A stretch of 36,036 nt of DNA, taken from NCBI GenBank assembly GCA_029257065.1, contig JARIDA010000028.1, positions 1 through 36,036 of the forward strand, read 5' to 3'. The position numbers and the translations under genes were made by a program. Under the pieces are notes generated by a model, which worked only from the letters and a program-made list of their open reading frames with translations, did no database searches and was not told the origin of the DNA. This document shows, piece after piece, positions 22,239 to 31,889 of the stretch (position 1 is its first letter; each line of letters begins with the position of its first letter). The stretch is from Tissierellaceae bacterium. GTDB taxonomy: Bacteria; Bacillota; Clostridia; Tissierellales; Tissierellaceae.

Positions 22239-22267
22239 TTGACAAGCAATATGGTTTGATAGATAAT
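22239..22267 (+). promoter_or_regulatory. Sigma-A promoter of walR-walK
   Basis: A perfect TTGACA (22239-22244) is 17 bp from GATAAT (22262-22267), 42 bp upstream of the walR start. No TGTWAH-N5-TGTWAH repeat is visible here, so direct autoregulation at this promoter is not supported. Confidence 0.8.
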
Positions 22268-22309: not shown

Positions 22310-22996
22310 ATGAAAGACAAAATATTAGTAGTAGATGATGAAAAAGCAATAGCTGATATTATAAAATTCAACTTGGAAAAAGAGGAATATACTGTTGAAG
22401 TGGCTTATGATGGTGAAGAAGGAATGGAAAAAGTTCATAATAGTGAATTTAATCTTATAATACTAGATGTTATGATGCCTAAAAAAGATGGTTTTCAGGT
22501 TTTGAAAGAGATAAGAGCAGAATACAATATACCGGTTTTAATGTTGACTGCAAAGGAAGAAGAAGTGGATAAGGTATTAGGACTGGAACTAGGTGCAGAT
22601 GATTATATAACGAAACCCTTTAGTATGAGAGAATTAGTAGCTAGGGTTAAGTCTAATTTGAGACGTGTTGATTTTGGAAATCATCAAGAGATTCCTAAAA
22701 TTATTGAATCAGATGAGATAAAAATAGATTTAGATAAATATGAAGTTATGAAAAATGAAGAAATATTAGATCTGACCCTTAGAGAGTATGAGTTGTTAAA
22801 ATTCTTAGCTAAAAGTCCAGGTCAAGTGTTCACAAGAGAGCAACTTCTAGAAGAAGTTTGGGGATATGAATACTATGGAGATATTAGAACTGTAGATGTT
22901 ACAGTGAGAAGGCTTAGAGAAAAAATTGAAGATGATGATGGAGAATTTATATATATATTAACAAAAAGAGGAGTAGGTTACTACTTTAGGAGATGA
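22310..22996 (+). CDS. walR: Response regulator WalR (YycF), OmpR family
   Basis: A 228-residue OmpR/PhoB-type regulator. The receiver domain (1-118) has the acidic pair DD at 9-10, the phospho-acceptor Asp53 in LIILDVMMPKKDG and the Lys in ITKPFS. The winged-helix effector domain (about 128-228) has LTLREYELLKFLAKSPGQVFTREQLLEEVWGY and DIRTVDVTVRRLREKIED. WalR controls peptidoglycan hydrolases and is essential in several Firmicutes. Assignment rests on the receiver/effector sequence plus the downstream walK-yycH-yycI-yycJ order. The gene overlaps walK by four bases (ATGA), indicating coupled translation. Confidence 0.92.
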   Translation: MKDKILVVDDEKAIADIIKFNLEKEEYTVEVAYDGEEGMEKVHNSEFNLIILDVMMPKKDGFQVLKEIRAEYNIPVLMLTAKEEEVDKVLGLELGADDYITKPFSMRELVARVKSNLRRVDFGNHQEIPKIIESDEIKIDLDKYEVMKNEEILDLTLREYELLKFLAKSPGQVFTREQLLEEVWGYEYYGDIRTVDVTVRRLREKIEDDDGEFIYILTKRGVGYYFRR

Positions 22997-24819
22997 TGAA
23001 TATATTTTCTGATATGTTTTCTAGTATAAAATGGAAGTTTATGGTAGTGTATTTTTTATTAGTATTTATGGCCATGGTAATAGTTGGAATATTTATAGTT
23101 GGAAAATTAGAAACACAGCAAATAGATAATGTTACAAATAATATGGAACAACATATAAAAAATATCATAAATACCTCCTCCTATTTACAGGAGGATGATT
23201 GGAAATCAGTTCAAGAGGAAATTCAAGAAACACTAAATGAATGGAGAATTGACAGTAAAGAAAATATTTATGTTATTTATAATGAGGAAATTCCTAAAAT
23301 ACTTGCATCATCTTTAAAAGATACAGAAAAAGCCAACAATCAAAATGCCCTATCCTATAAGGATATAGATCCTACTCTTATAATAGAAGCAAATAAGGGA
23401 ATAAAAGCCACGGGAAGAGTAGAGCAGATAAATGAGGAAAGATTGACAAGTCATATAGCATATCCTGTTTTAACTGAGTATGGTGAGGTAAAAGGAATCA
23501 TCTATATGATTTCAGATTTAAAGGATGCTATGGAAACAGTGGAAAGATCCAAAATAATTCTGACCAATGCAACTCTAATAGCTCTATTGATAACCATAAG
23601 TTTAGGTTATTTAATTGCCAATAGTATAACTGAACCGATAAGAGATGTTACTAGAAAGGTAGAAGAGATGGCTGAAGGAGACTTTGATCAGAAGGTTGAG
23701 GTTAGGTCCAATGATGAGGTAGGGCAGTTGGCAAGTATGTTTAATTATCTTACATCAGAACTGAAAGCTACAATAAATGAAATGGAAGTTGAAAAATCAA
23801 AATTGGATACCATATTTAACTATATGACTGAAGGGGTTGTGGCCATAGATCAAGAGGGATATATTATTCATGCCAATCCAATAGGTTTAGATATACTTAA
23901 TATGGAGAAGGAAAAATCCTTTTTAGATAAAAAAGAATTAGTCCAATTTCCCTATGAAAAAGTTAACTTTAATAGAATTGACTATTCGGAAATTGATAGA
24001 CTTCAAGGAGATACAATCTCAGAAATAGATGGGGAGATTTATAAGATAAAATATGCTCCTTATAAAACAGATACGAATCATATAGATGGACTTATTTTAG
24101 TATTTCAAAATATGACCAATGAATATAAATTGGATAATTTGAGAAAAGAATTTGTAGCCAATGTGTCTCACGAGTTAAAAACTCCAATTACCACAATAAA
24201 AAGCTATACGGAAACACTTATGGATGGTGGAATGGATGAATCAGTACAATTGAGCTTTCTGCATGTTATAGATGACGAATGTAATAGAATGGGAAGACTT
24301 GTCAGTGATCTTTTACAATTATCAAATATGGATTTCAAGAAAACCGTATGGAAAAAAGAAAAATTGAATATTAATAGACTTATAAGGGATATAGTTCAAA
24401 AACTGGAATTGAGTTTTGAGACGAAAAATCAAAAATATGAATTGGATTTGGATGAAGAAAACCCAAGTCTTAAAGTGGATAGAGATGCTATAGAACAAGT
24501 ATTGTTAAATATAATTTCAAATGCAGTTAAATATACAAATGAAAATGGTTTAGTGGTTATTAAAACTAAATGTACAGATAATTTTATAAATATTTCAATA
24601 AGGGATAATGGAATAGGAATACCTGAAGAGGATTTAGAGAGGATATTCGAACGGTTTTATAGAGTAGAGAAGGGCCGTAGTAGAGATTTAGGTGGAACTG
24701 GCCTTGGACTGGCAATAGCAAAAGAGATAATTCAAGGACATAATGGATATATAGACATATATAGTGAATATGAAAATGGAACAACAGTAGAGATAAAATT
24801 GCCTAAGATGGTATTGTAA
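22993..24819 (+). CDS. walK: Sensor histidine kinase WalK (YycG)
   Basis: A 608-residue sensor kinase. TM1 is FMVVYFLLVFMAMVIVGIFIVG (about 16-37), followed by an extracytoplasmic sensor of about 150 residues, TM2 (TLIALLITISLGYLIANSI), HAMP (ITEPIRDVTRKVEEMAEGDFDQ), PAS (about 270-375), and HisKA with the phospho-acceptor His393 in NVSHELKTPITTIKSYTETL. The HATPase has NAVKYTNE, DNGIGIPEEDLERIFERFYR and GGTGLGLAIAKEI. The layout equals Bacillus WalK. RBS: TTTAGGAG inside walR. The following gene begins after a WalR-type box, so part of the operon may have a separate, regulated promoter. Confidence 0.92.
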   Translation: MMNIFSDMFSSIKWKFMVVYFLLVFMAMVIVGIFIVGKLETQQIDNVTNNMEQHIKNIINTSSYLQEDDWKSVQEEIQETLNEWRIDSKENIYVIYNEEIPKILASSLKDTEKANNQNALSYKDIDPTLIIEANKGIKATGRVEQINEERLTSHIAYPVLTEYGEVKGIIYMISDLKDAMETVERSKIILTNATLIALLITISLGYLIANSITEPIRDVTRKVEEMAEGDFDQKVEVRSNDEVGQLASMFNYLTSELKATINEMEVEKSKLDTIFNYMTEGVVAIDQEGYIIHANPIGLDILNMEKEKSFLDKKELVQFPYEKVNFNRIDYSEIDRLQGDTISEIDGEIYKIKYAPYKTDTNHIDGLILVFQNMTNEYKLDNLRKEFVANVSHELKTPITTIKSYTETLMDGGMDESVQLSFLHVIDDECNRMGRLVSDLLQLSNMDFKKTVWKKEKLNINRLIRDIVQKLELSFETKNQKYELDLDEENPSLKVDRDAIEQVLLNIISNAVKYTNENGLVVIKTKCTDNFINISIRDNGIGIPEEDLERIFERFYRVEKGRSRDLGGTGLGLAIAKEIIQGHNGYIDIYSEYENGTTVEIKLPKMVL

Positions 24820-24836: not shown

Positions 24837-24875
24837 TGTAATAAGACTGTAATATATATAATGTATAATTGTAAT
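24837..24875 (+). promoter_or_regulatory. Candidate WalR-activated internal promoter
   Basis: TGTAAT (24837-24842) and TGTAAT (24848-24853) form a perfect TGTWAH-N5-TGTWAH WalR box. A -10 TATAAT lies at 24864-24869, ten bases after the box, and no -35 is seen; this is the class II spacing of PhoB-type activators. A third TGTAAT at 24870 lies in phase (22 bp after the second). It lies between walK and the secreted-protein gene. Confidence 0.72.
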
Positions 24876-24915: not shown

Positions 24916-25461
24916 ATGTGGAAAAAAGCTTTATTTAGCTTTTTTATAGGAGCAACTTTGTTTACATTAAATCCAATAGTAGAGGCAGCAGAACTTGATA
25001 GAGTTACTATAGGCCAAAATGTACTTATTGAAGATTTTAATCAGGATTCATTTGTTGTGCGTAGAAATGGAGTTAAAAGAACACTTACTACTAATAAGCC
25101 TGGATATGAAGTTATAAATCCAGACAGGGATTCTTTTTCAACAGAGACAAAGGTTGCATTAATAAATGGGAAAGCTCCTGCAAAAACTCCTATTACTATA
25201 AAATTATATGGAACAACAGGTGGAAATAGAAATAATACTTTTAATTTAAATAAATTGCCATCATCTAAAGATTATATTGAAGTATCCAGTGATACAATAT
25301 ATTCAGGAAATCTAGGGTTTTTCCAGAAACAACAGGACTTAGTAATGGGAATAAATAAAATTGTAATAGATTTTGGAGCAAAAGATGTTAAACCAATTGA
25401 AATAATTGTATATGTTTATGAAAAAGCACCATCATTAATAGAGATAATGAATAGAAATTAA
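24916..25461 (+). CDS. Secreted protein of unknown function in the wal operon
   Basis: I do not recognise a family. The 181-residue product starts with a clear Sec signal peptide, MWKKALFSFFIGATLFTLNPIVEAAE, with probable cleavage after VEA. The mature part (about 157 residues) is rich in beta-prone residues with no cysteines. It contains VTIGQNVLIEDFNQDSF, FSTETKVALINGKAPAKTPITIKLYGTTGG, YIEVSSDTIYSGNLGFF and GINKIVIDFGAKDVKPIEIIVYVYEK, suggesting immunoglobulin- or stalk-like beta domains. I chose the ATG at 24916, with GGTGGAG upstream; the track start at 24874 lies within the promoter. It sits between walK and yycH behind a WalR box, so a wall-related role under WalR is plausible but unproven. 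Confidence 0.75.
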   Translation: MWKKALFSFFIGATLFTLNPIVEAAELDRVTIGQNVLIEDFNQDSFVVRRNGVKRTLTTNKPGYEVINPDRDSFSTETKVALINGKAPAKTPITIKLYGTTGGNRNNTFNLNKLPSSKDYIEVSSDTIYSGNLGFFQKQQDLVMGINKIVIDFGAKDVKPIEIIVYVYEKAPSLIEIMNRN

Positions 25462-25490: not shown

Positions 25491-26942
25491 ATGAAGGAAA
25501 AGTTTAAAACAGTTTTATTAATATTACTGTTTGCTTTGAGTATTGTATTGACCAAACAATTATGGATAGAAGTTCCCACTAAAGTTTTCAGTTGGTTAAA
25601 TAAACCGGCAGAAAGCTTTAGTTCTTCATATCTATTAATAGATATGATTGCGCCAAATAAATATTTACTGAATTTTGATTCAGAAAAACATATGCTTTTT
25701 TATGATGAATCAATATATGAATTATGGACAGATGCAAGAGGCAGTTTAAATAAAATATTGGGATCAAAAAATATTGAGATAAAAGCAGTTACAGGTGATG
25801 ATCTATATAATTACAATGCTAAAAAATCAATTTCTTTTTCATTTCCAGAAAAATTAAATACTAATATATTGGCAAAGGCTTTGGATGTGGAAACACCTAA
25901 TGAAATTACAGAGGCTATTAGAGAGATTAATAGTATCTATATTTATTTAGGATCAGAAGAGCCTTTTTTTGTATTTTCAAATGGTGATAATCATATCAGA
26001 GTAGAAGATGAAGATATAGATACTGAAAAGATAAAAACCCAATTTTTAGAGATAGAAGAGAAAGAAAGATCCAAAGATAATCCTAATTATTACTATTCTA
26101 TGAGACAAACTATGGGAACAGAAAAAGATATATATATACCCTATAAAGTGGAGGATAATTTAGCAAGGATTTTTGTTGAAAATGAAATAGAAACACTTAA
26201 TGAGAGAGACAAAGAGAAATTAGCAGAAAAGTTTTTTGATAAAAATATAGATTATATAAGGGAAATAGTTGAGAATAATGGTTCTAATATATATATTGTA
26301 GATCAAAAAATATTGAAGCTAAATGCAAATGGGTCTTTAGAGTATTTTCATGTAATTCCAGAACAGGTTAAAAAGAGAAATCTTTATGAAAGTATGAATA
26401 CTGCAGCAGATTTTATATCTAAGAATATAGGGCTAGCCAAGGGAATGATTAAGTTAGCAGATGTAGAAGAAATAGAAGAGGATGGTAGTCAAGGTTATAA
26501 ATTTAACTTTAGATATAGAATAAAGGGTATACCTGTAATACTGGGTAATAAAGAGGTTGTAGATTTTATAGAGGTTGAGGTATTTAATGATCATATAAAA
26601 TCCTATAAGCAATTTATAAGACAAAGCATGAATAATACGGATAAAATACTTGGTTTTGATGAAGATTTAAATTTAAATAGAAATATGTTAACTTCCTTTC
26701 AAGTTATAGACATGAATTATGATATATTCCTAGAAGAGTATAGAGGAGATAATTCCTCTGAAGAGATAACAACAGATCAAATTCTATCAATAATAGAAGA
26801 TATTAATCTATCTTATTTTGATCCCTGTTTCCAAGATACAGGAGATGAGCTAATTGGAATCTGGGCGATTAGAACCAAAGAGTATTTATATGGATTTGAT
26901 GTGTATAATGGTAAACTGGTTTATTATAATAAAAATAGGTGA
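25491..26942 (+). CDS. yycH: YycH family regulator of WalK
   Basis: A 483-residue protein with one N-terminal membrane anchor (VLLILLFALSIVLTKQLWI, about residues 7-25) and a long extracytoplasmic part. It is assigned to YycH from position (after walRK and before a clear YycI) and topology; the N-terminal KTVLLILLFALSIVLTKQLW resembles YycH starts. Primary sequence is poorly conserved in this family, so identity depends on synteny. YycH and YycI form a membrane-associated pair that modulates WalK activity. I chose the ATG at 25491 with TTGGAG upstream; the track start at 25476 falls in that site. Its stop overlaps the beginning of yycI. Confidence 0.78.
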   Translation: MKEKFKTVLLILLFALSIVLTKQLWIEVPTKVFSWLNKPAESFSSSYLLIDMIAPNKYLLNFDSEKHMLFYDESIYELWTDARGSLNKILGSKNIEIKAVTGDDLYNYNAKKSISFSFPEKLNTNILAKALDVETPNEITEAIREINSIYIYLGSEEPFFVFSNGDNHIRVEDEDIDTEKIKTQFLEIEEKERSKDNPNYYYSMRQTMGTEKDIYIPYKVEDNLARIFVENEIETLNERDKEKLAEKFFDKNIDYIREIVENNGSNIYIVDQKILKLNANGSLEYFHVIPEQVKKRNLYESMNTAADFISKNIGLAKGMIKLADVEEIEEDGSQGYKFNFRYRIKGIPVILGNKEVVDFIEVEVFNDHIKSYKQFIRQSMNNTDKILGFDEDLNLNRNMLTSFQVIDMNYDIFLEEYRGDNSSEEITTDQILSIIEDINLSYFDPCFQDTGDELIGIWAIRTKEYLYGFDVYNGKLVYYNKNR

Positions 26943-26947
26943 TGAAA

Positions 26948-27790
26948 ATGGATTGGTCCAAAGCAAAAACCATATTAATTGTATCCTTTCTAATAACGAA
27001 TATTCTATTAGGTGTATTTGTAGTATCAAGTGATAATATGGAAGATGCAACATTATCAGAAGAGTTTAAGAGAGATGTAATATCCATGCTGAATGAGAAG
27101 GACATTGAGTTAAATACTCAGCTACCTACTATAAATCCTAGTTTGCCTCCTATAATTGTAGAATATGAACAATTAAAAGCGGTTAAAATAAATGAGGATT
27201 TTTTCCAATCTAAGGGAGATATAATATTAAGAGGAAATAGTAGTCAAATAGTCTATGGAAGAGAAGTTATAGAGATAAAAAATAATAAAATTTTGAACTA
27301 TAAGAATGGTTCTAAAGATATTAAATATGAAAATTTGAATAGAGAAAAAGTTGAAGATATAGTTAGAAAATTTATATCAAACAGAAATTTAGATAGAGAT
27401 AATATGGAATTGACCTCCATAACTGAATCTGAAAATATTTATATAGCTAGATTTAGTAAAATCTATAAAGATAAATATGTTGAAAGAGCATATTTAAATA
27501 TATTTGTAGATGAAACAGGAGTTAAATCAGCTGAAAAATTATGGTTGGAGATTATAGACGATGGTGAAAAAGAAATATATATAAATACTGCACCAAAAGC
27601 AATATTAAGTCTCCTAAATATGGAGGAAGCTAAAGGTAGGATAATTGAAGATATTTCAATTTGCTATTATTTTGATCCAGAGGAAGAAGATTATATAGAA
27701 GATTTAAAAGATGCTAAAAAAGGAAAAACAATTCCCGCATGGAGAGTATTATTTGATGATGGGAATAGAATAATTATAGATAATTATTAG
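26948..27790 (+). CDS. yycI: YycI family regulator of WalK
   Basis: A 280-residue protein starting MDWSKAKTILIVSFLITNILLG, the family's typical MDW-K-KT start with a single N-terminal membrane helix (about residues 8-27). The rest is extracytoplasmic and ends with the YycI-type domain (ICYYFDPEEEDY and KKGKTIPAWRVLFDDGNRIIIDNY), resembling YycH/I beta-sheet repeats. It should partner YycH in controlling WalK. The ATG at 26948 fits the AGGTG at 26937-26941 and the family's start; the track uses a GTG (26939) within the RBS. It ends in a terminator, so walJ is on a separate transcript or read-through. Confidence 0.83.
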   Translation: MDWSKAKTILIVSFLITNILLGVFVVSSDNMEDATLSEEFKRDVISMLNEKDIELNTQLPTINPSLPPIIVEYEQLKAVKINEDFFQSKGDIILRGNSSQIVYGREVIEIKNNKILNYKNGSKDIKYENLNREKVEDIVRKFISNRNLDRDNMELTSITESENIYIARFSKIYKDKYVERAYLNIFVDETGVKSAEKLWLEIIDDGEKEIYINTAPKAILSLLNMEEAKGRIIEDISICYYFDPEEEDYIEDLKDAKKGKTIPAWRVLFDDGNRIIIDNY

Positions 27791-27866: not shown

Positions 27867-28661
27867 ATGAAAATAAACTTTTGTTCCCTATCTAGTGGAA
27901 GTTCTGGAAATGCACACTATATAGGAACTGACAATATAGAGATTCTAGTTGATGCAGGGATGTCAGGAAAAAGAATAGAAAATCTATTGAAAGAGAGAGA
28001 CTTAAGGGCGGAGGATTTGGATGCTCTATTTGTAACCCATGAACACACTGATCATGTTAAGGGCATCGGGGTACTGTCCAGAAGATATAATATTCCCATA
28101 TATGCAAATAAGGGAACTTGGAAGGGTATGGAGGATAAGATAGGTAAGATCAAAGAGGAAAATATTAAAATAATTGAAACAGAAAAAGAATTTATCTTGA
28201 AAGATTTGTGTATAAAGCCAGTGGAAATATATCATGACGCAAGGGAACCTGTTGGATATATAATATCCAATGGGAATAAAAAAATTAGTATAGTAACAGA
28301 TACTGGAAAATTAGATGATAGAATAATGTGTGCCATGGAAGACTCTGATATATATTTACTGGAGACAAATCACGATATACAAATGTTAAGACAGGGAAAC
28401 TATCCATATTATTTAAAAGAGCGAGTTTTAAGTGACCATGGTCATCTCTCTAACGCATATGCATCCAATGCATTGAGCCATTTGCTAAAAGCTGATGGGG
28501 AAACTGTTTTATTGGGTCATTTAAGTCAGGATAATAATACACCTAGAATGGCCTTTAATGAGGTGGCTTTTAAAATTATGGAATTGGGAATAGACATAAA
28601 AAAGGATATTAATTTAGAATTGACACATAGAAACAAGCAAACAGATATTATAACTATTTAG
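27867..28661 (+). CDS. walJ: MBL-fold hydrolase WalJ (YycJ)
   Basis: A 264-residue metallo-beta-lactamase-fold protein. The N-terminal NFCSLSSGSSGNAHYIGTDNIEILVDAG is the YycJ signature. The metal motif is VTHEHTDHVKGIG (HxHxDH), with further ligands in SIVTDTGKL, ETNHD and DHGHLSN. YycJ/WalJ is a probable 5'-3' exonuclease or related nuclease linked to cell division and wall homeostasis; its substrate in vivo is not settled. GGAGGAG precedes the ATG. It is followed by a small membrane protein gene. In Bacillus, htrA and then rlmH lie beyond; here rlmH is 5 kb further, after a minus-strand block. Confidence 0.9.
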   Translation: MKINFCSLSSGSSGNAHYIGTDNIEILVDAGMSGKRIENLLKERDLRAEDLDALFVTHEHTDHVKGIGVLSRRYNIPIYANKGTWKGMEDKIGKIKEENIKIIETEKEFILKDLCIKPVEIYHDAREPVGYIISNGNKKISIVTDTGKLDDRIMCAMEDSDIYLLETNHDIQMLRQGNYPYYLKERVLSDHGHLSNAYASNALSHLLKADGETVLLGHLSQDNNTPRMAFNEVAFKIMELGIDIKKDINLELTHRNKQTDIITI

Positions 28662-28691: not shown

Positions 28692-28871
28692 ATGCCTATT
28701 GTTATTTTGTATGGGGTTGTTTCAATTGCATTTGGTTTTAAGGTTTTTGAATCTATAAAAGAAATTAAAAAAGGTGGATTTAAAAAAGAAAAAGTTTGGA
28801 GATTATTATATAGCTCTCTATTGTTAGTAACAATAATTATGTTGTTTTTTAGTAAAGTAAATAAACTATAA
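28692..28871 (+). CDS. 59-residue membrane protein, unknown function
   Basis: Not in the ORF track because of its length. AGGAGG lies eight bases before an ATG, and the frame runs 59 codons to TAA. The product starts MPIVILYGVVSIAFGFKVFESI (first hydrophobic segment), then a lysine-rich turn (KEIKKGGFKKEKVW), then LLYSSLLLVTIIMLFF (second segment). This is a hairpin topology with a positive loop, which would be cytoplasmic. It lies 30 bp after walJ and just before a strong terminator, so it is very probably the last gene of the walJ unit. No family is recognised. Confidence 0.72.
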   Translation: MPIVILYGVVSIAFGFKVFESIKEIKKGGFKKEKVWRLLYSSLLLVTIIMLFFSKVNKL

Positions 28872-28905
28872 AAAATGCTTTCAACCTAGGTTGAAAGCAT
28901 TTTTG
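28871..28905. terminator. Bidirectional terminator between the small membrane gene and DUF4387
   Basis: A perfect palindrome centred on CCTAGG (ATGCTTTCAACC and its complement), flanked by five A and five T. It serves both convergent transcripts. Confidence 0.88.
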
Positions 28906-28910
28906 GTTTA

Positions 28911-29210
28911 TTAAATTTCCATTTCTAATAAGGCAGAACTTAAACTTTTACCATGCATATCTATAGACAAGGATTTTGTAACTCCTCCACCTAAAGCTCC
29001 ATGCATAACAAAATTTAATGCACCTAATTTAGGAAGTTCATATCTTACAACATCTCCTGTAACAATATCTGAAAACCATTCTTTTACACTATCAGTTGTT
29101 ACTTTTTCCTTTAATAAATCATAATCCTCAATATCATATGCAATAAGAGATATATTTGATATATTTCCCTTATCTCCAGTACGAGAATGTGCTATTTCAT
29201 ATAATTTCAT
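28911..29210 (-). CDS. DUF4387 / AtuA ferredoxin-like domain protein
   Basis: A 99-residue protein with the family pattern LYEIAHSRTGDKGNISNISLIAY at the start and RYELPKLGALNFVMHGALGGGVTKSLSIDMHGKS near the end. It corresponds to the small C-terminal domain that is fused to AtuA in some bacteria and encoded separately in others. Function is unknown. It begins 2 bp after the AtuA stop, with GAGGAGG inside the AtuA 3' end, so the two are translated from one transcript and probably form a complex. It is last in the CitMHS-AtuA-DUF4387 operon and ends at a strong shared terminator. Confidence 0.87.
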   Translation of the reverse strand: MKLYEIAHSRTGDKGNISNISLIAYDIEDYDLLKEKVTTDSVKEWFSDIVTGDVVRYELPKLGALNFVMHGALGGGVTKSLSIDMHGKSLSSALLEMEI

Positions 29211-29212
29211 AA

Positions 29213-30568
29213 TTATACCTCCTCATAAACAACAGTTGAGTTTACCTTATCTCTTGGAACAAATATAGAACAAACTGCAATTATTTCTTTAATATTTTTA
29301 GTAGCTCCTCCACCAGCAGCTGGTCCATTTGTGTAAAGAGTTTCAACTTCATTCACTATCTTAGTTGCTTCTGATCTAGTTTTTGTTCTAGCTGCAATTC
29401 TAAGTCTAATATCCTTAACATCGGTTGCATTTGAAATCATTTTATTGCTAATTTTATCCTTGTAAAGAGAGTTAACACCAATATAATCAACTCTTAATTC
29501 ATCATATTCAGATCCAATTATATCCAATCTCTTCTCAACAATTTCAGCAGCAAGTTTAGCCCTTTCAAGTGCATTTGAACCGCCATAGCTTATTTCACCC
29601 TCTGCAATAAACCCATCTCTATATCCAATACTAACTTTTAATGCTTCTGGCTTTACCTTACCTTTTCCACCAGTAACTAAAACTCTATCTTCCCCTATTT
29701 CATCTATTTCAACCCCTGTATAGTCTGCCACTCCATCTGGAGTAATATAAGCACTTGGGTCATGGATTTCATATAGTAGTTGCTCTATTGCAGTATGTCT
29801 GTTGATTGTTCCACCTGAACCATCAACTTTTGAAATTTCAGTATCTCCATTTTCAGAAACTTCTGCTATAGGAAATCCTAATTTCCATGGTTCTTTAACA
29901 TCTTTAAAACCTGGATCAGCAAAATATCCTCCTGTAATCTGTCCACCACACTCGAGTAGATGACCTACCATAACTGCTCTACCAATATTATCAATATCAT
30001 CTAAAGACCAACCAAATTCATAGGCAAGAGGTGCTACTACAAGTGCTGGATCTGAACATCTTCCAGTTATAATAACATTTGCTCCATTTTCAAGTGCTTC
30101 TATTATACCTTCAGACCCCATATAAACATTTGCTGATATTATTTGATCTTTTATAGTTTCCAATTTACTATCCAGTTCTAAAATATCATAATCCATATAA
30201 TCTTCAATTGAATCATAAATATCATCACCAAGAACCGCTGCTATTTTAAGGCCAGTAAGACCTTGTTTTTCAGCAATCTCTTTAACAACTTTTATAGCTG
30301 ATATAGGATTAGCTGCACCCATATTAGTTATGATTTTTACACCCTTCTCAAGAGCTAATGGAAGTACATTTTCCATTCGATATTCCAACAGTCCATTATA
30401 ACCCTTAGTTGGATCTTTTAATTTTGACTGTTGTGCAATAGCAATAGTTCTCTCTGCTAATGTTTCAAAAATAACATAATCTAAATTTCCTTTTTCTATA
30501 ACTTCTAAAGCTGGTTCTAGTCTGTCACCACTATATCCTGCTCCAGAACCAATACGAACTTTTTTCAT
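29213..30568 (-). CDS. AtuA family (DUF1446) protein
   Basis: A 451-residue protein with the N-terminal VRIGSGAGYSGDRLEPALEVIEKGNLDYVIFETLAERTIA, GAANPISA, VITGRCSDPALVVAPLAYEFGW, HLLECGGQITGGYF and GGTINRHTAIEQLLYEIHDPSAY motifs of the AtuA/DUF1446 family. The name comes from acyclic terpene utilisation in Pseudomonas, but the biochemical activity is not established and no terpene genes are here. Sitting between a CitMHS carboxylate transporter and DUF4387 under sigma-54 control, it more likely acts on an organic acid or its CoA ester (inference). GGAGG precedes the ATG. The length is typical of the unfused form. Confidence 0.88.
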   Translation of the reverse strand: MKKVRIGSGAGYSGDRLEPALEVIEKGNLDYVIFETLAERTIAIAQQSKLKDPTKGYNGLLEYRMENVLPLALEKGVKIITNMGAANPISAIKVVKEIAEKQGLTGLKIAAVLGDDIYDSIEDYMDYDILELDSKLETIKDQIISANVYMGSEGIIEALENGANVIITGRCSDPALVVAPLAYEFGWSLDDIDNIGRAVMVGHLLECGGQITGGYFADPGFKDVKEPWKLGFPIAEVSENGDTEISKVDGSGGTINRHTAIEQLLYEIHDPSAYITPDGVADYTGVEIDEIGEDRVLVTGGKGKVKPEALKVSIGYRDGFIAEGEISYGGSNALERAKLAAEIVEKRLDIIGSEYDELRVDYIGVNSLYKDKISNKMISNATDVKDIRLRIAARTKTRSEATKIVNEVETLYTNGPAAGGGATKNIKEIIAVCSIFVPRDKVNSTVVYEEV

Positions 30569-30593
30569 AATAAAAACCTCCTATTTGTTTTAG

Positions 30594-31889
30594 TTAAATA
30601 GCAATTACTCCCGTTATTAAAGCCACTATAAGCATAACAATTGAAATTGTAAATGCATATGGGATTGTACGTTTTTGATGCTCACCTAAGTCTACATTTG
30701 TAAGTCCTACTAGTAAAAAAGTTGCACCTGTAAGTGGACTCACTGGGAATCCTGTTGTCATTTGTCCTATAATAGAAGCTCTAGCAACACTCATAGCACT
30801 AACTCCAAATGCAGCTGAGGCTTCAGCAAGAACTGGCATAACTCCAAAGTAGAATGAATCTGGATCAAATACTAAACTGGCTGGCATTGAGAATACCCCA
30901 ATTATAACTGGAATAAATCTTCCCATTGCATCTGGTATTATAGTTACTACAGCAGCAGCCATAGCATCTAGCATTCCAGCACCTTTTAATATTCCTGTAA
31001 ATGAACCTGCTGCAAATAATATACTTGCCATCATAAGGGCTGATTGTGCATGTGCATCAACTCTTTTTCTCTGTTCATCCACCTTTGGATAATTTACTAG
31101 AAGTGCAAAGGCAAAAGCAAACATAAATATAACAGTTGGTGAGAAAAAACCTTTAATCAATATAAATACAGCAAGGAAAATCGTTGCAATATTTACCAGG
31201 AAAAGTTTAGGTCTCTTCAAAGCCTCAATCTCTGGATCGACTTCAACCTTAGTGTCTATATCTTTTAAATCAATATTACCAATTCTAGCCTTTTCCTTAG
31301 CTCCCAATCTATATGCAATAAAAAGTACAGTTGCAAGTCCAGCTAAAAATGGAATCAACATTGGGTTAAATAATTCAGAAACATTTACACTTAGAGCAGA
31401 TGCTGCTCTTAATGTTGGTCCACCCCATGGAACCATATTCATTGTACCTGCAGACAAAGCAACTACTGTAGCTAATGTAGTTCTTCTCATGCCAAGTGCA
31501 TCATATAAGGGTAACATTGCAGGTACTGTTACTAAGAAGGTAACGGCCCCTGAACCATCTAAATGAATAAACATTGCTAATATGGCAGTACCAAGTGTAA
31601 TTTTAACTGGATCACTACCTACAATCTTAAGAATCTTATTGATTATAGGGTCAAAAGTCCCTGCATCAGTTAAAATACCAAAGAATAGTATGGCAAATAT
31701 AAACATTGTACCTGTTGGTGCAATTGTCTTTATACCATCAATAATAAATCCATTTAACTCTCCCCCAAATCCTCCAATAACCGCTGCTATTGATGGAACA
31801 ACTATTAAAGCAACTACTGGAGATGCTTTCTTAGCCATTATTAAAATAAGTAATACAATAATTGTTAAAAATCCTAATGCTGCTAACAT
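30594..31889 (-). CDS. CitMHS-family organic acid transporter
   Basis: A 431-residue membrane protein with about 11-12 hydrophobic segments. Family features are [44 protein letters not shown], the [26 protein letters not shown] motif, [13 protein letters not shown] and a C-terminal half with [18 protein letters not shown] and [13 protein letters not shown]. CitMHS proteins carry citrate with Mg2+ or Ca2+, or related di- and tricarboxylates, driven by protons. The substrate here is unknown; no citrate lyase genes are adjacent. It is the first gene of the operon behind a sigma-54 promoter, with AGGAGGGA before the ATG and a leader of about 40 bp. Confidence 0.88.

Follow-up and report, generated by a model that had tools for sequence, protein, structure and literature searches.

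Low-GC Gram-positive bacteria depend on WalRK, their essential two-component system for the cell wall. The wal operons of B. subtilis, S. aureus, and C. difficile have all been reported not to be autoregulated (PMC9210968, PMC7299342, PMC4801191), and from this lack of autoregulation it has been argued that the system does not tune its set point via the levels of the WalK-WalH-WalI complex (PMC7299342). In B. subtilis, YycH and YycI (WalH and WalI) inhibit WalK (PMC7299342), while in S. aureus the effect of YycHI differs (PMC4801191; PMC5013275). C. difficile encodes WalA, a lipoprotein with a predicted beta-propeller that is the first gene product of a walA-walR-walK-truA2 operon, which is reported to lack autoregulation and contains no yycH (PMC9210968). 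The locus described here lies in a 36,036-nt stretch of Tissierellaceae DNA (the window), in which a gene designated X is located between walK and yycH. The relevant features are arranged as follows:

22239-22267, plus strand: sigma-A-like promoter of walR, canonical TTGACA-17-GATAAT, without a WalR box
22310-22996, plus strand: walR (yycF), OmpR-family response regulator; top-scoring NCBIfam model YycF (324 bits; cut-off 340)
22993-24819, plus strand: walK (yycG); top-scoring NCBIfam model HK_WalK (526.9 bits; cut-off 725)
24837-24853, plus strand: putative WalR box TGTAATaagacTGTAAT, TGTAAT-AAGAC-TGTAAT, two direct half-sites at an 11-nt pitch, 17 nt past the walK stop
24864-24869, plus strand: predicted -10 element TATAAT, exactly 10 nt after the WalR box
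24916-25461, plus strand: gene X, 181 codons; signal peptide at residues 1-24 and one predicted Ig-like (Glucodextran_B-type) domain at about residues 64-170
25491-26942, plus strand: yycH (walH), PF07435 (4.7e-8); ATG 25491 after TTGGAG
26939-27790, plus strand: yycI (walI), named by position and by orthology to locus L029; no Pfam match
27867-28661, plus strand: yycJ (walJ), metallo-beta-lactamase fold, named from family models
28871-28904, both strands: terminator-like bidirectional hairpin after yycJ

The identities of WalR, WalK, YycH, and YycJ derive from Pfam and NCBIfam models, with WalK and WalR scoring below their curated NCBIfam cut-offs. Like WalA, which is suspected to modulate WalK (PMC9210968), X is a predicted exported accessory encoded together with WalRK in a clostridial lineage. 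However, WalA is a lipoprotein at the start of its operon, whereas X is cysteine-free, Ig-like, of the signal-peptidase-I type, and located between walK and yycH; a lipobox cysteine and a position as the first gene before walR were both looked for in X and are absent, as X follows walK. The MtrAB-associated protein LpqB is, like X, an exported accessory, but it is a lipoprotein. It is encoded beside the WalRK-like MtrAB two-component system of Mycobacterium (PMC9210968). YycH and YycI share the locus and an extracytoplasmic or membrane-exposed location with X, which is always found beside yycH, but they are membrane-anchored, single-pass proteins, whereas X is secreted and much smaller. The published wal clusters of B. 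subtilis and S. aureus contain neither X nor a WalR box. Our literature search, which covered mostly papers available without subscription, found no account of X or of a WalR box inside a wal locus.

The first-pass annotation had proposed a secreted protein between walK and yycH, and this was borne out. Judged from its sequence, 24916-25461 is a genuine gene: its ATG at 24916 is preceded by a good ribosome-binding site (AGGTGGAG), its stop is at 25461, and its N-terminus (MWKKALFSFFIGATLFTLNPIVEA followed by AE at the putative cleavage point) reads by eye as a typical signal-peptidase-I leader, which would be cleaved to leave a mature part of ~157 residues. By eye, X has no membrane segment besides the signal peptide, and because it contains no cysteine, it is not a lipoprotein. 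An alternative in-frame start (ATG 24874) was rejected, as it has no ribosome-binding site and the predicted transcription start coincides with it or lies downstream. X is separated from walK by 96 nt and from the yycH ATG by 29 nt, and yycH is presumed from this arrangement to be cotranscribed with X. walR has an ordinary -35/-10 promoter without a WalR box, which places walRK outside of the control of the box. The walK-X gap shows no terminator, and hence transcripts reading through from walR may contribute basal expression. A plasmid search gave no match and thus no sign of mobility. Further downstream, the minus strand of the window (28911-31889) carries an AtuA-like protein in two ORFs (28911-29210 and 29213-30568) adjoining a CitMHS/GntP-like transporter (30594-31889), which, as named by eye, resembles a small catabolic cluster.

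The published WalR consensus is TGTWAH-N5-TGTWAH (PMC9210968). The box at 24837-24853 matches it perfectly and is the sole such box on either strand of the window, while the complete pattern of box plus -10 occurs once in the 1.7-Mb genome to which the window belongs. No -35 hexamer is present before X, as the position 17 nt upstream of TATAAT reads ATAAGA. Among 60 relatives, the complete promoter pattern was found in 43, mostly once and mostly at X. In a first set of 95 walK-X gaps, 83 contained an exact WalR box compared with 0.25 in mononucleotide shuffles; 80 had the 10-nt spacing to the -10 and 77 a perfect TATAAT. In the final set, an exact box preceded X in 125 of 142 distinct loci, against 0.8 expected from 300 dinucleotide shuffles (maximum 5), and the 10-nt spacing between box and -10 was present in 115/124 scored loci, of which 124 a perfect TATAAT was seen in 112. 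By comparison, none of 11 walK-yycH junctions lacking X had a WalR box. Outside of this position the 142 loci contain zero boxes, a count not taken as a control because the TAA within the half-sites rules out most coding frames. The WalR-type promoter that the first-pass annotation had ascribed to X is accordingly a perfect box with a TATAAT, conserved far beyond chance. The regulatory wiring of X by a WalR box is strongly supported by this conservation; we would describe the box as a conserved WalR-type site of activator geometry, with WalR as its probable binding protein.

Similar promoters were also seen in other settings. Two genomes (G029 and G059; L188-L193) have several copies, such as TGTAATTAAAATGTAATT, with TATAAT 10 nt past the second half-site, preceding pilin-like, secreted, and GGDEF/HD-type signalling genes, possibly as another OmpR-family regulon. 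In the window's genome, one-mismatch promoters L195, L196, and L197 on contigs C40, C100, and C113 precede genes for secreted proteins (phosphodiester glycosidase-like, PepSY/YPEB-like, and copper-amine-oxidase-N-like) that are candidates for its remaining WalR regulon, with the number of one-mismatch promoters in this genome not clearly above a reversed-pattern control.

X is also firmly fixed in its position. When searched at the protein level, 28/60 related genomes proved to have an X orthologue, always between walK and yycH (in L027 and L028, X was detected by genome search and not by tblastn). Profile A1 detected X as a single copy in 67/249 genomes of the order, and the wider profile A2 detected it in 85/391 sampled genomes of the class, with X nearly always single copy across order and class, and in 19/300 genomes of the phylum, mostly as weak matches. 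Four weak profile matches in other contexts (L127, L128, L131, and L133; E above 1e-5) were excluded as doubtful. In all 142 distinct loci yycH is directly 3' of X, and in 124 of them walK is directly 5' (within 450 nt); the other 18 comprise some contig ends and some real separations. A Tissierellia metagenome assembly (L029) has the full order walR-walK-X-yycH-yycI-yycJ. Conservation at this place is thus not sporadic, with near-perfect synteny across many clostridial families. As for the earlier description of X as inserted between walK and yycH, the location holds, while insertion is one reading among others, since presence or absence at this site varies among lineages. In one genome (G021; L006/L040), stop codons divide yycH into two ORFs while X is intact, which may reflect a sequencing error or a decaying gene.

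Comparing genomes with and without X provided natural controls. YycH is present in 155/249 genomes of the order, including all 67 that have X, and X occurs in 0/94 genomes without a YycH match; owing to the relatedness of the species, the events behind these counts are not independent. In an initial set of 22 genomes without X, yycH is missing from 8 and present in 14; in 3 of these 14 a divergent X-like ORF is in place (L134, L138, and L139), and in the remaining 11 walK abuts yycH directly. There is a clear asymmetry within the order: X needs yycH, and yycH does not need X. As many genomes have yycH without X, X is not required for YycH function in general. In family f62, X-yycH is located behind an uppP-like gene with WalR and WalK elsewhere, and the box still precedes X, which indicates that it belongs to X-yycH and not to the 3' end of walK. 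Four f62 loci (L245, L248, L260, and L261) have two overlapping WalR boxes upstream of the relocated X. Since X is never without yycH in the order and stays beside it even when walK is elsewhere, its genomic context suggests that X is tied more closely to YycH than to WalK. Genus g10 (three species) has lost X, and its walK adjoins yycH directly. Each of its genomes has one full WalR-box promoter (L182-L184; G009, G016, and G023), located 51-61 nt before a gene for an NlpC/P60 endopeptidase, a protein named by eye from its sequence. Endopeptidases of this kind are a classic type of WalR target, and this one may be the main WalR-activated hydrolase of the genus.

The family to which X belongs was examined by profile searches. 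X of the window is without a Pfam match or a significant NCBIfam match, and in particular matches neither PF07435 (YycH family) nor PF09136 (Glucodextran_B; curated cut-off 27 bits); a PDB sequence search with the X profile found nothing. A spore_II_P match (E 0.039) was rejected as chance, having 13.8 bits against a cut-off of 123. Glucodextran_B was, however, matched weakly by 14/28 close X orthologues (E<=1, best 3.9e-6), two remote orthologues exceeded the PF09136 cut-off (38.8 bits in G656, 36.1 bits in G734), and hhalign of the X profile against Glucodextran_B gave a probability of 85 (E 6.5e-6). X consists of a single domain, distantly homologous to Glucodextran_B, with a conserved insertion (YGTTDLTRKNFNL..LP...DY) that is absent from the 14 compared Glucodextran_B domains. 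Structure models of X alone and of its domain together with L029, made from at most two sequences, had mean pLDDT values of 38 and 35, too low for use. From the profile comparisons, X is likely an Ig-like sandwich with a lineage-specific insertion. Clear homology to an unrelated family was not found: X is related to known families through this distant Ig-like domain alone, from which no function follows.

Taken together, we favor a reading, with a probability of roughly 0.55, in which X-yycH-yycI-yycJ is a WalR-activated unit and X an extracytoplasmic adaptor that, with YycH and YycI, tunes WalK and closes a feedback loop. Phosphorylated WalR would activate this sub-operon, of which X is the first gene, from a class-II promoter in which the WalR box stands in for the -35 and ends 10 nt before TATAAT; activation by the box-bound protein, rather than repression, is suggested by analogy with OmpR/PhoB-type promoters. 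X would be exported via Sec and cleaved, acting on the outer side of the membrane as a small adaptor of Ig-like type. Along with YycH and YycI, it would set the sensitivity of the kinase, such that active WalR would yield more of the proteins that tune WalK. Should YycHI inhibit WalK as they do in B. subtilis, the feedback would be negative, but given that their effect differs between B. subtilis and S. aureus, the loop could have either sign. What the sequences show is the gene, its fixed linkage to yycH, and the conserved promoter; signal-peptide cleavage, WalR binding, activation, cotranscription, and the biochemical role of X, including any contact with YycHI or WalK, are inferred, as is the sign of the loop.

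The fixed linkage could also reflect co-regulation alone, with X acting on the wall or its hydrolases and not on YycHI. X might then be an effector of the WalR regulon, either a secreted wall-binding protein or an IseA-like D,L-endopeptidase inhibitor, located beside yycH merely through shared WalR control. We regard this as unlikely, though with points in its favor: the same promoter precedes the endopeptidase gene in genus g10, three of the four one-mismatch sites of the window's genome are followed by genes for signal-peptide proteins, and surface proteins often contain single Ig-like domains (most of the domain-search matches were large multi-domain ORFs). One would expect an effector to have left the locus in some cases, however, and X adjoins yycH in every one of the distinct loci; moreover, IseA of B. 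subtilis is repressed by WalR (PMC7299342), whereas the X promoter has activator geometry. A second alternative is that a different OmpR-family regulator, such as a PhoP/PhoB-like paralogue, recognizes the box and that X-yycHIJ answers phosphate or another signal rather than WalR. PhoB and PhoP promoters also typically carry direct repeats at an 11-nt pitch with a -10 about 10 nt downstream, and relatives encode several OmpR-family paralogues. We nonetheless consider this reading improbable, since the half-sites fit the published WalR consensus (PMC9210968), the site is within the wal locus itself, and what it precedes in genus g10 is a gene for an NlpC/P60 endopeptidase and not phosphate genes. 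Lastly, it is highly improbable that X is a lineage-specific secreted protein without a Wal-related function that was fixed here by happenstance, as the many genomes in its order with yycH but no X, and the quick divergence of X, might suggest, because synteny and promoter are kept across many families, including at loci that have moved away from walRK.

Returning to the feedback model, a WalR box with a nearly fixed spacing to the -10 is found before X-yycH in >30 families of Clostridia and relatives. We would tentatively extend the model, at somewhat less than even odds, to a large part of the Clostridia, where WalR~P would drive X-yycHIJ, with X as an unnamed secreted subunit of a WalK-YycHI sensor complex and the feedback setting wall-hydrolase homeostasis. 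Control by WalRK of its own accessory branch, if true, contrasts with the published view of non-autoregulated wal operons. If WalR binds the box, these bacteria would adjust the level of the regulators by feedback, via a secreted component unnamed in the literature that was searched.
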